DNA of 64,000 nt from an uncultured Poribacteria bacterium. Lineage in GTDB: Bacteria; Poribacteria; WGA-4E; WGA-3G. A program made the position numbers and the translations under genes. The DNA lies in assembly GCA_951812525.1 (NCBI GenBank), contig OX638316.1:4582506-4646505 (forward strand), given 5' to 3'. The notes beneath the pieces are model-generated. The model was not told the origin of the DNA. It saw nothing but the letters and a program-made list of their open reading frames with translations, and searched no databases. Of this stretch, positions 29,572 through 56,115 are shown piece after piece (the first letter of the stretch is position 1; each line of letters begins with the position of its first letter).

Positions 29572-29685
29572 CAAATAAATGGACATCTTTGTAGCATAAA
29601 CTGTTAGTTTGTGCCAGTGTGAATGCTCATTAGTGGCATTCACACTGTTTAAGAATGTCGAATTAATTCTAATATCTACCATAAA
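29572..29685. repeat. Dispersed structured element, single-core copy (114 bp)
   Basis: The sequence from CAAATAAATGGACATC to CTACCATAAA recurs at 55767-56022. Predicted pairing: outer GGACAT with ATGTC(C/G); hairpin 1 GCATAAAC/GTTTGTGC; hairpin 2 GTGTGAATGC/GCATTCACAC, a perfect 10-bp stem. Together this gives a three-way junction. The other locus has the central 71 bases three times. Confidence 0.75.
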
Positions 29686-52148: not shown

Positions 52149-52263
52149 TTTTCTCCTTGGTTAAGTTTAAAATAGGTTGTATTGTCCTAAATAAGGGACG
52201 CCAAACGACTGAGAATCCACAGAACGTGTCTATTACACGACTTCAGTTTCTCTTAAAAACGTA

Positions 52264-52332
52264 TTGATTTTTCGCATCAAATATGGTATAATGACGCTGG
52301 TAAATTCATAGTGAAATTCACCATACCAGCGT
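52264..52332 (+). promoter_or_regulatory. Promoter and operator-like dyad of the helicase gene
   Basis: TTGATT (52264-52269), 17-base spacer, TATAAT (52287-52292). A 9-bp dyad ACGCTGGTA/TACCAGCGT (52294-52302 and 52324-52332) covers the start of transcription and the early leader. It may be a repressor site or an mRNA hairpin. Confidence 0.6.
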
Positions 52333-52416
52333 TATGAACCTTGACCTGAGCACCATATTACACAAAATACAGAACTGACGCGAATATCTCCGAAAGCATG
52401 CATGGGAGGAAACCCG

Positions 52417-55400
52417 ATGAACATCCTTCATGAATTAAACGCAAAACAGAGAGAAGCGGTAACACACAAAAATGGTCCTCTTCTTGTCATCGCAGGTCCC
52501 GGCACAGGAAAGACAAAAGTCATTACACACCGTATCGAGTACCTGATTCGCGAACACGGTATCAAGTCGGAGAACATTCTAGCACTCACGTTCACCAATA
52601 AAGCCGCGGAAGAGATGCAGAAACGCATCAACGACGAAATAGGAGAACCACACGGATCCAGCATTCAGGCTTGCACGTTCCATACATTTTGTGTCAAAGT
52701 GCTCCGAAAACACGCACAGCAGATCGGATTGAGCGAAAACTTCACTATCTTCGACCAAGAGTTTCAAGATGAGATTTTAACGGAGAATGTTCGCGAGTTG
52801 AACTTGGAACCCGATGAGTATCCACTGTGGTCGCTAAGAAATGCGATCAGTGATGCCAAATGCAAACTGCAGAATCCTGTTGATGCAGTAGACACAACGG
52901 ATATTTATGAAACAGGAACTGTCGAAAACCTCCGAAGTGTGCTGCAGGCGTATCAGGAGAAACTTGAGCGATATGATGCTCTCGATTTCGACGACCTTCT
53001 CGTGAAAACCATCGAATTGCTTGAGGAGGTAGAAGACGTCAAAGCAGCCTATCGCAAGGTGATCTCCTATGTCCTCGTCGACGAATATCACGATGTAAAC
53101 AGTGCACAGTATCGCCTACTCGAACTTCTCTGTCCGTCCCCCGACGGGAATCTGATGGTAGTTGCTGATGGAGATCAAGCTATCTATAGTTGGCGTGGAT
53201 CCAATCCAGAATATATTGACAATTTTAAAGCGGATTACAACCCGAGCGAACTTGAACTGGACGACCACTACAGATGTAGCGGGAAAATCTTGCGTGCTGC
53301 AGAGGAAGTCATCTCCCAAAACCCAAAGCGACAGAAACAGCACACCCTCAGACCTCATAAAGATGTCGGACGGGACATCTTCCACTATACCTTTGACACA
53401 CCCGTAGCGGAAGCGCGCGGTATCATTAAGATCATCAAGAGTCTAGTAGCACAACGTAACTACTCTTACCGTGATATAGCGATCTTTTACCGAACCCACA
53501 GACTCGCAGACGTTATGGCTGAGCAGTTGCTACGTGCAAACATCAAATTCCAGCGGGTTCAACCGACGAACTCCTTTGGAGAAGGGAATAGTAAGAGCAT
53601 TTTCGCCTACCTTCGACTCATCCAGTGGCGACTTCCACAAGATTTGGAGCGTGCGATCAATTTCCCTGAGACTTACATTGACGGTCTGACATGGGTGCGC
53701 CTTAAGTGGCTTGCGCAACGCGAAAATATTGAGTTTATAGAACTTCTAAAAAACATTGACGCATACCCACAGGATGTCGGTCCCTTGACCCGTCGTAATA
53801 TACGCCAATTTTGGACACAACTTGAGGGTTTATCATCCGAAATTGAAGATGAGAAGATTGACAAAATAATTTCGATACTCTTTGACACATTGGAACGCTC
53901 CCGTTCCCCGTATCGCACCGAAGAATTGGAGGTAATAGAAAAACAATCTGAACTGTCGAATATTGCAACTGTCCAGGACATTCTCTACAGTGCCCTCGAC
54001 CTCGATGCGCCGATCAAGATTACCGCAAGCCATGGAATAGATGAATATTGTGCAGCACACATTATTCATCAGACGCTTGAAACCTATCTGGATTACACCC
54101 CTCAACTCCAACTCCTATCTCCCGATGAAAACAGTGCGATGCAGTTGGAAAGCGGAGTCCATTTACTCATTGGCGATTTTGCAGAAATTGAGGAACATGG
54201 TCGGGACACGCGGACGATTCTCATCGGCACAGCCGAAACGATAAATACAGACGCCATCCAGCTCGGATCCGAAAGTGTTCGGAGCATTGCGGCACTCAAG
54301 CTTTGCCAACGGCTTATCAATCGCTTTGAAAGTCCAAATATGGCGGATATGATTGTCTATGACCTGGAAACGACGGGTATCAATCCAAAAACAGCAGAAA
54401 TTGTTGAGATCGCTGCACATCGACTCAGTGCGATAGGTAGCACGGTTGACGAGTACCGTAGCTACGTAAAACCGCCCGGTGGATACATTCCGCGGTCAGC
54501 CACGCGCATTCACGGCATTACGGAGGAGGATGTCAAGAACGCACCCAGCATTGAAATAGTGCTGCCTGAAATACTCGGATTCATCCAAGATCGGATTTTG
54601 ATTGGACACAACGTAGCAGAATACGATAATCGCATCCTCACACGGGACCTGAGAAGGTATTTGGATAGAAGTTTATCAGCACCGCATTACGACACACTTG
54701 CCACGGCTCGCCGGCTTTTTCCACGACAACGGTGCAGTATGGGTGCGCTTGCCGAAAAATTTGGAATCAAACACGGTGATTTACACAGAGCCGTGGAGGA
54801 TGTTGAGGTCAACCGAGAAATCTTTAAAGAACTCATCAAAATTGATGCTAACAAACGAGAAATAAAATCTCTGACCGAACTTCTACCACTTGTTGGCGTT
54901 GGTATCCTCGCTAAAACTGAGGCATCCGAATCAAAAGACGCTTCTAAAGAGGACACCGTAACCGAGACTGAGGCATTCCTCAACGCTGCGAAACGCTTCA
55001 TCCAGACGCACAATGTAGGACTACCGGATCGTTTCCCACTGGAAGCATCAGGGGCAACAACATACATGGAAGAATTACAGGATGCCGTCATTCCAGAGTT
55101 CCCAGAAGACATCGAGTGGCGACAACGTCGTATCCAGTTTATGAACGCTGCGTTCCATTTTGAATCGATGGGTTTTGGACACAAACTTACCGACTTCTTG
55201 GATTATCAGAAATTGCTCACGAATGTTGATGAACTTGACGATACGACCGAGCAGTTGACACTAATGACGATGCATGCGGCGAAGGGAACAGAATTTCCGG
55301 TCGTTATTATCATTGGTATGGAGGAAGGGAGTTTTCCGATGTGGCGGCAGAATCTCACGGAGGAAGCACTTGAAGAGGAGCGTCGTCTTTTCTATGTTGG

Positions 55401-55539
55401 TATGACGCGAGCGCAGTCACAGCTTTATCTGAGTTCTGTTACATATCGTTTTGGGGACAGAGATCGTGCGGCGTCAATATTTGTGCAAGAGATTCCGTCT
55501 GATTATGTCGTCAAATGGAGTCCACGGCACCGGATGTAG
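52417..55539 (+). CDS. SF1A helicase (UvrD/PcrA-like) with embedded DEDDh exonuclease
   Basis: ATG 52417 is used because GGAGGAAACCC precedes it. Helicase motifs: Q-motif LNAKQREAVTHKNGPLLVIAGPGTGKTKVI (Walker A), LALTFTNKAAEEMQKRI (Ia), CTFHTFCVKVLR, YVLVDEYHDVNSAQYRLLELL (II), NLMVVADGDQAIYSWRGSNPEYI (III), LDDHYRCSGKILRAAEE (IV), LTLMTMHAAKGTEFPVVIIIGMEEGSFPM (V) and EEERRLFYVGMTRAQSQLYLSS (VI). Between IV and V, at about residues 645-815, lies a DnaQ-type 3'-5' exonuclease: MIVYDLETTGINPKTAEIVEIAAHRLS, HGITEEDV, ILIGHNVAEYDNRIL, HRAVEDVEVNREIF, with all DEDDh residues. The protein (1040 aa) should unwind and trim DNA, a probable repair factor. Confidence 0.85.
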   Translation: MNILHELNAKQREAVTHKNGPLLVIAGPGTGKTKVITHRIEYLIREHGIKSENILALTFTNKAAEEMQKRINDEIGEPHGSSIQACTFHTFCVKVLRKHAQQIGLSENFTIFDQEFQDEILTENVRELNLEPDEYPLWSLRNAISDAKCKLQNPVDAVDTTDIYETGTVENLRSVLQAYQEKLERYDALDFDDLLVKTIELLEEVEDVKAAYRKVISYVLVDEYHDVNSAQYRLLELLCPSPDGNLMVVADGDQAIYSWRGSNPEYIDNFKADYNPSELELDDHYRCSGKILRAAEEVISQNPKRQKQHTLRPHKDVGRDIFHYTFDTPVAEARGIIKIIKSLVAQRNYSYRDIAIFYRTHRLADVMAEQLLRANIKFQRVQPTNSFGEGNSKSIFAYLRLIQWRLPQDLERAINFPETYIDGLTWVRLKWLAQRENIEFIELLKNIDAYPQDVGPLTRRNIRQFWTQLEGLSSEIEDEKIDKIISILFDTLERSRSPYRTEELEVIEKQSELSNIATVQDILYSALDLDAPIKITASHGIDEYCAAHIIHQTLETYLDYTPQLQLLSPDENSAMQLESGVHLLIGDFAEIEEHGRDTRTILIGTAETINTDAIQLGSESVRSIAALKLCQRLINRFESPNMADMIVYDLETTGINPKTAEIVEIAAHRLSAIGSTVDEYRSYVKPPGGYIPRSATRIHGITEEDVKNAPSIEIVLPEILGFIQDRILIGHNVAEYDNRILTRDLRRYLDRSLSAPHYDTLATARRLFPRQRCSMGALAEKFGIKHGDLHRAVEDVEVNREIFKELIKIDANKREIKSLTELLPLVGVGILAKTEASESKDASKEDTVTETEAFLNAAKRFIQTHNVGLPDRFPLEASGATTYMEELQDAVIPEFPEDIEWRQRRIQFMNAAFHFESMGFGHKLTDFLDYQKLLTNVDELDDTTEQLTLMTMHAAKGTEFPVVIIIGMEEGSFPMWRQNLTEEALEEERRLFYVGMTRAQSQLYLSSVTYRFGDRDRAASIFVQEIPSDYVVKWSPRHRM

Positions 55540-56115
55540 TAAACTATCAACAAGGGCTTGCAATTCGCCCCTACACCTACGCCTGAGCATTTGGAGATCA
55601 AATACGGGGCGGGATATATCCAGCATCGTAACATATCCGTTCAATTTTCGGTATCGTATGTGGGTTCGCAAGATGTGCAAAGTTCCATGTCGCCAAATAG
55701 TAACACAAACTGTTTTGAAACGCAAGATGGTTCCGAGGGAACCACGGTCATTTATGGTTATACCCCCAAATAAATGGACATCTTTGTAGCATAAACTGTT
55801 AGTTTGTGCCCGTGTGAATACTCAGTAGCGCAATTCACACTCTTATGGACATCTTTGTAGCATAAACTGTTAGTTTGTGCCTGTGTGAATACTCAGTAGC
55901 GCAATTCACACTCTTATGGACATCTTTGTAGCATAAACTGTTAGTTTGTGCCTGTGTGAATGCTCAGTAGTGCAATTCACACTCTTTAAGAATGTCCAAT
56001 TAATTCTATTATCTACCATAAATAACCCTACCGCCTGAAAAAGACACCTTGAAAAAAAAGGTTAGACATGGCATACTAAAATACACACGAAAATAAGACC
56101 TCTTCGATTAGAAAA
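55540..56115. other. Repeat-bearing intergenic region
   Basis: No gene between the helicase and the amidohydrolase. The first 230 bases hold only short meaningless frames. 55767-56022 is a structured repeat. TTGAAA near 56051 with TACTAA 19 bases on may be a promoter of the next gene. Confidence 0.5.
55767..56022. repeat. Dispersed structured element with core triplicated (256 bp)
   Basis: Same ends as the copy at 29572-29685, but the central 71-bp unit occurs three times in tandem (starting at 55774, 55845 and 55916). Each unit has hairpin 1 GCATAAAC/GTTTGTGC and hairpin 2 GTGTGAAT/ATTCACAC. The outer GGACAT pairs with the ATGTCC at 55992-55997. 256 equals 114 plus two times 71. Confidence 0.85.

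Follow-up and report, generated by a model that had tools for sequence, protein, structure and literature searches.

A UvrD/PcrA-type helicase of Poribacteria with a predicted DEDDh exonuclease and a degenerate RecJ-like domain within subdomain 2B

Superfamily 1A (SF1A) motors track 3'-5' along DNA, and in PcrA and UvrD the 2B subdomain, whose GIG motif has a functional role in PcrA, faces the duplex. During strand excision in E. coli, UvrD works with separate exonucleases (ExoI, ExoX or RecJ), of which enzymes of the DEDDh type cut from 3' ends and RecJ acts on 5'-ended single strands. In AddA and RecB the nuclease is a C-terminal PD-(D/E)XK domain. The union of a helicase and an exonuclease in one chain can work, as indicated by S. 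aureus SaDinG, both activities of which are needed for crosslink repair, and the same report describes bacterial helicase-exonuclease fusions as little studied (PMC12345164). Here we analyze a gene for a UvrD/PcrA-type helicase that carries a predicted DEDDh exonuclease, preceded by a degenerate RecJ-like domain, inside subdomain 2B (hereafter the fusion protein). The gene was found in a window of 64,000 nucleotides (contig OX638316.1, positions 4,582,506 to 4,646,505) from assembly GCA_951812525.1, a single-contig, 5.06-Mb metagenome-assembled genome of Candidatus Poribacteria, a sponge-associated group.

The gene lies on the forward strand at window positions 52417..55539 (ATG at 52417, stop codon at 55537-55539) and encodes 1040 residues. 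The choice of start matches an MNxL start conserved among relatives, and a ribosome-binding site, GGAGG, is located at 52405..52409 on the same strand. Residues are numbered here from codon 2 (window position 52420), so that full-length numbers are higher by one. Pfam matches were obtained for UvrD-helicase at residues 6-273 (8.5e-83) and, interrupted, for UvrD_C at 280-1007. The first helicase portion (52417..53910, +; to residue ~497) comprises 1A, 1B and the first parts of 2A and 2B, with Walker A GPGTGKT, DEYHDVN and GDQAIYSWRG, and the second portion (55105..55536, +) comprises the second parts of 2B and 2A, with motif V (MTMHAAKGTEFP, 949-960) and motif VI (YVGMTRA, 992-998). Walker A, the DExx, Q and R motifs, motifs V and VI and the split 2B place the protein among the UvrD/PcrA/Rep SF1A helicases (PDB 1pjr, 9dci), with which it shares all helicase motifs and the 1A/1B/2A/2B order; the motor residues K31, D221, E222, Q253 and R285 are unchanged in all 71 non-fragment rows of the alignment defined below. 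The best PDB match was PcrA 1pjr (E 1.4e-104), aligned at residues 2-482 and again at 905-1030. An ordinary PcrA is encoded in the same genome besides the fusion protein, and its positions 489 and 552 align with 447 and 906 of the latter. Since the PcrA alignments split at these points, 2B contains an insert of ~395 residues that PcrA lacks, placed between motifs IV and V and leaving both halves of 2B in place. Moreover, the PcrA sequence KRGIGAST is replaced by ETYIDGLT, and the PcrA equivalog model NCBIfam TIGR01073 gave 509.7 bits in two stretches, below its curated cut-off of 911.2.

The exonuclease domain (54340..54885, +) was recognized by the Pfam model RNase_T at residues 645-802 (1.5e-29; 104.1 bits against a cut-off of 24) and matched PDB entry 2p1j (E 2.3e-29). 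The motifs YDLETTG (647-653), HNVAEYDN (730-737) and HRAVEDVEVN (789-798) supply all five residues expected of a DEDDh enzyme, D648, E650, D736, H789 and D794; the model of the DnaQ epsilon equivalog, dnaQ_proteo, scored 94.6 bits, below its cut-off of 222.7. In the alignment of 74 distinct proteins, from which identical duplicates, sequences containing unknown residues and four broken pieces (L055, L055b, L057 and L084; G and L numbers are our handles for genomes and loci) were left out and in which three rows are fragments (L182, L183 and L184), the five residues are kept in 70 rows. Median omega values, estimated by the Nei-Gojobori method from 9-10 close pairs, were 0.050 for the exonuclease, 0.092 and 0.048 for the two motor segments and 0.108 for the RecJ-like domain; the variable linker that leads back to 2B (54886..55104, +; residues 823-895) showed the lowest identity and, at 0.170, the highest omega of the segments. 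Judged by these residues and ratios, the motor and exonuclease active sites are both intact and under purifying selection. The initial annotation had described a UvrD/PcrA-like motor in a 1040-residue chain, in agreement with the domain scans and motifs, and a complete DnaQ-type exonuclease in the 2B region between motifs IV and V, for which the domain scans, conservation and selection speak as well. Its exonuclease thus stands, but the insert exceeds the single exonuclease that it described, a second domain, at residues ~498-640, being located ahead of the exonuclease.

This second domain (53911..54339, +) resembles the DHH domain of RecJ and Cdc45 with the catalytic signature lost. In a profile-profile comparison, it matched the RecJ DHH domain of the same phylum with a probability of 93.2 (E 3e-7), and an independent hhalign run scored 40.8, whereas none of 40 column-shuffled controls exceeded 25.4 and the reversed profile reached 14.9. 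By blastp, each of the 71 domains had a match at E<=10 among 25 RecJ proteins, a small database in which the lowest value was 1.8e-6, and the NCBIfam recJ model appeared for 3 of 31 members, with E 0.0082 at best. A profile search of PDB at E<=10 returned 12 matches, of which seven, namely Cdc45 in first place, two archaeal RecJ-like proteins (GAN), three RecJ and one DHH protein, all fall on the DHH motif I region; the identities given to entries 5x4h, 5x4i and 7bhi, which are among the matches, are partly our assumption. For comparison, the DHH domain of the genome's own active RecJ finds just 8 RecJ/DHH sequences in PDB. The RecJ signature GDYDxDG corresponds to ASHGIDEYC in the window's protein. 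Neither a DHH nor a DYD string occurs in any of the 71 domains, D.DG is found solely in L081, and D541 is the only nearly invariant residue (70 of 71). A loss of the DHH catalytic residues has likewise been described for Cdc45 (PMC5484177). By these alignments, residues 498-640 are a degenerate relative of RecJ and not an active RecJ, and we refer to them as the pseudo-DHH domain. The RecJ proteins of Poribacteria (L092-L116) are themselves long frames, ~716-800 residues in the fetched loci and up to 936 in the search table, E. coli RecJ being shorter at roughly 570 residues.

The survey of homologues proposed in the initial annotation was run within Poribacteria and found the insertion throughout the phylum: at E<=1e-100, the fusion protein is present in 73 of 84 genomes, and in 52 of the 55 best ones. 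Weaker similarity, to pieces of the protein encoded on short contigs, was seen in G055 and G059. At 80% query coverage, 72,556 plasmid and 50,697 phage records yielded no fusion. Among 41 viral-contig loci with a relative, none looks fused by the listed coordinates, their helicases measuring ~1.8-2.0 kb or only exonuclease or helicase pieces being present. A scan of genome contigs with narrow peptide patterns picked up 23 loci in Poribacteria and, in Colwellia, a single weak helicase match, and offers no basis for absence elsewhere. The fusion gene is present twice in G036 (L072, in tandem) and in G039 (L070 and L071), genomes that belong to a single genus of another family, the second copy being ~45% identical to the window protein. 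Additionally, two proteins from the same genus as the window, L074 (G028) and L184 (G022), share ~53% identity with the window's fusion protein, against 74-82% for most others; this divergence suggests replacement by transfer or an old paralogue.

The exonuclease also appears to be nearly the only one of its family in these genomes. RNase_T gave 78 matches in 74 of the 84 genomes; by coordinates, 76 of them lie inside the fusion protein and the remaining two in free-standing small frames (G049:C701 and G060:C2), and the window's own genome has a single match. Free-standing DnaQ, ExoI, ExoX or oligoribonuclease proteins of the RNase_T family therefore seem to be almost absent from the phylum. 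The poribacterial DnaE, aligned end to end with the Pol III alpha of Taq/T. thermophilus, starts with a PHP domain whose motifs (HLHNHSEYSMLDG, TDHGN, GCEVY, YHLTLL, TGC and TNDCH) show the expected His/Asp/Glu/Cys pattern. They fit the active PHP site of M. tuberculosis DnaE1, which is of a type that proofreads and consists of five His, three Asp/Glu and one Cys (PMC5636811). With a DnaE PHP site that looks complete, proofreading can be PHP-based, and replication need not use the exonuclease of the fusion protein.

Taken together, the fusion protein is rather likely to be an accessory SF1A (3'-5') helicase-nuclease for DNA repair, inherited across Poribacteria and carrying a two-domain cassette in 2B. 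Coupled unwinding and 3'-5' trimming by one chain is plausible, and the conservation of the motor and exonuclease active sites speaks for it; as the predicted live exonuclease is almost the sole one of its kind in these genomes, both steps may be performed by a single protein. In such a mechanism, the motor would load onto a 3'-ended single strand and move 3'-5', with the cassette positioned where the strands part. The pseudo-DHH domain would hold or guide the single-stranded DNA at the fork and leave it uncut, similarly to what has been proposed for Cdc45 with MCM, and the exonuclease would digest the exposed 3' end, so that a single enzyme would both unwind and destroy a stretch of strand. 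Its likeliest tasks would be the excision of an error-bearing strand or 3'-end clean-up, perhaps together with MutS/MutL (MutL is found in 78 of the 84 genomes). A role in repair excision fits best, and it is possibly one in mismatch repair or in 3'-end processing. A bolder proposal, which we hold to be rather unlikely, is that the protein forms a phylum-wide one-chain machine for strand excision, in which a helicase II, an inactive RecJ clamp similar to Cdc45 and the phylum's main DnaQ-type 3'-5' exonuclease together perform what E. coli mismatch repair leaves to separate proteins (UvrD, RecJ and ExoI/ExoX). If this were true, the conversion of RecJ into a pseudonuclease tied to a helicase would have arisen in bacteria independently of Cdc45.

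It is necessary to set out the observations that weigh against this repair reading. Other exonucleases do exist in the phylum, as ExoVII is present in 82 of the 84 genomes and RecJ-size DHH proteins in all 25 genomes examined. The fusion gene is missing from 3 of the 55 high-quality genomes, its neighbours in the window are metabolic and partly common to relatives, with no repair operon among them, and MutL is distant in the genome in question (1.14 Mb, the fusion gene being at 4.63 Mb). As for the pseudo-DHH domain, the Pfam DHH model was matched by none of 31 members in residues ~498-640, each PDB match taken alone is not significant (E 0.24-1.9), and the confident stretch of the RecJ alignment spans only the first half of the domain. 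AlphaFold models had mean confidence (pLDDT, predicted local distance difference test) values of 44.8 for the full length (22 sequences) and 50.6 for the pseudo-DHH domain (17 sequences). The order of strands and helices in the latter model is compatible with a DHH fold; neither RecJ nor Cdc45 was among the matches listed by Foldseek and VIA-align for it, the model being too weak to inform. As no predicted structure is usable, the claim of a DHH fold rests on sequence. Finally, the full set of exonuclease residues is missing in four of the 74 rows, L077 (G040), L078 (G037), L079 (G052) and the fragment L183 (G055), which implies that exonuclease activity is not always needed. According to the alignment, these residues have been lost at least twice, with the motor staying intact. 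Three of these proteins, L077, L078 and L079, are natural separation-of-function variants by sequence, with a decayed exonuclease active site and intact helicase motifs.

The same losses, with motor motifs remaining in the first three proteins, would also be expected if the exonuclease were a structural or DNA-binding remnant and the helicase alone did the work, and the adjoining DHH domain is itself catalytically degenerate. Against this, all five residues persist in the other rows and the omega of the exonuclease is as low as that of the motor, and we consider such a remnant improbable. It is slightly less probable still that the helicase-borne exonuclease corrects errors at the replication fork in genomes without a free DnaQ epsilon. 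Its RNase_T domain is indeed the only one in its own genome and nearly the only one in the phylum, but the complete-looking PHP site of DnaE is of the type that proofreads in M. tuberculosis (PMC5636811), and some genomes lack both the fusion protein and any RNase_T match. Equally improbable is a role in anti-phage defence as an effector like GajB or the DRT helicases, with a UvrD-like helicase and a nuclease degrading invading DNA. The best PADLOC scores, 342 bits for GajB and 303 bits for RTasHel, point in that direction; PcrA models, however, score higher (510 bits), which makes the two matches generic UvrD ones. Moreover, the distribution over 73 of 84 genomes, mostly in single copy, resembles that of a core gene, the plasmid and phage records contain no fusion at 80% query coverage, and the flanking genes scanned are metabolic and include none that resembles GajA.

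The region upstream of the gene was the basis for a further alternative, that of a regulated promoter. A sigma70-type promoter, TTGATT-17-TATAAT, with TG before the -10 element and 10 of 12 consensus matches, lies at 52264..52292 (+). The pattern TTGNTT-17-TATAAT was found 105-127 bases upstream of the ATG in 31 of 57 regions, the window included, and all 31 belong to the same genus. The strong promoter that the initial annotation had described is consequently well matched, with -35 and -10 elements conserved in the genus, and the fusion gene would be expressed from its own conserved predicted sigma70-type promoter. An inverted repeat, ACGCTGGTA (52294-52302) and TACCAGCGT (52324-52332), spans 52294..52332 over the expected transcription start; it is an exact 9+9 dyad and located where the initial annotation had placed it. 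As an exact repeat over that site, it could be the operator of a regulator, possibly one of the DNA-damage response, as had been suggested. Pattern and similarity searches, however, detected no second copy in the 5.06-Mb genome, so that the search for the dyad at other genes that the initial annotation had called for, now run genome-wide, told against its own proposal. Nor is the dyad kept at 28 other promoters of the same genus, in which the longest perfect arm is 4-7 bases (mean 4.96, versus ~4.75 in shuffles). The window holds 43 nested 9-mer inverted pairs (~20 separate dyads when merged by eye), versus 4-12 nested pairs in five shuffles, so that 9+9 dyads are common rather than rare there. 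An operator function is thus very improbable, and the dyad is probably incidental. The dyad region folds as RNA with a z of -3.2, and a 5' mRNA hairpin of changing sequence seemed possible by eye in the upstream alignment; this candidate was dropped, as the mean z over 36 upstream regions is only -0.70. No Rfam match was obtained at the gathering threshold in 52150-56100.

The window neighbours of the fusion gene are DUF1611, PhyH, a divergent Bmp binding protein, an amidohydrolase (Amidohydro_2) and another PhyH, and no adjoining GajA nuclease was detected among the flanking genes scanned. Eight genomes from a sister genus (G066, G067, G068, G074, G077, G078, G079 and G081; L185-L192) have the fusion gene close to a TruD-type gene that runs the same way and to a divergently oriented MutL gene, with further open frames between them in G074 and G081. 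TruD was identified by Pfam in L185 and L192, and MutL in L185, the other loci having been assigned by eye from matching starts. The arrangement was not seen in three other sister-genus genomes examined (G069, G070 and G080), and the proximity of MutL to the fusion gene is a hint only. Just downstream of the gene, at 55774-55986, three tandem 71-base units contain a GTGTGAAT/ATTCACAC dyad, which also occurs at 29594-29613. Searched against the genome, one such unit matches 45 times, by our own count 19 times over nearly its full length, and it therefore belongs to a dispersed family of intergenic repeats.

In the open literature, with subscription journals and bioRxiv mostly outside the search, no description of a UvrD-DnaQ or UvrD-DHH-DnaQ fusion was found. 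The predicted exonuclease sits inside the duplex-touching 2B subdomain and not at a chain end, beside a dead RecJ-like domain, and this bears on how a motor may gate a nuclease placed in its moving 2B arm, on how a phylum without free epsilon gets by on PHP proofreading, and on whether helicases have recruited inactive RecJ domains more than once. Like AddA and RecB, the protein joins an SF1A motor and a nuclease in the same chain; unlike them, its nuclease is of the DEDDh type and inside 2B, and it scores far below the AddA/RecB cut-offs. Like SaDinG, it combines a helicase with a 3'-5' exonuclease in one chain, whereas SaDinG is a superfamily 2 helicase of 5'-3' polarity with an N-terminal exonuclease, and no DHH domain is part of it as described in that report (PMC12345164). 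The insert resembles RecJ, archaeal GAN and Cdc45 in the sequence of its DHH domain, and Cdc45 too has lost catalysis and is tied to a helicase (PMC5484177); here, in contrast, the insert shows the DHH part alone, covalently inside an SF1A helicase and followed by a DEDDh exonuclease. A DnaQ-type exonuclease inserted in another domain, PHP, is likewise described for the PolC of Gram-positive bacteria (PMC5636811), PolC being a polymerase and not a helicase. Helicase-nuclease fusions are therefore of a known kind, and what appears to be new here is the predicted presence of a pseudo-DHH domain and a DEDDh exonuclease together inside 2B.

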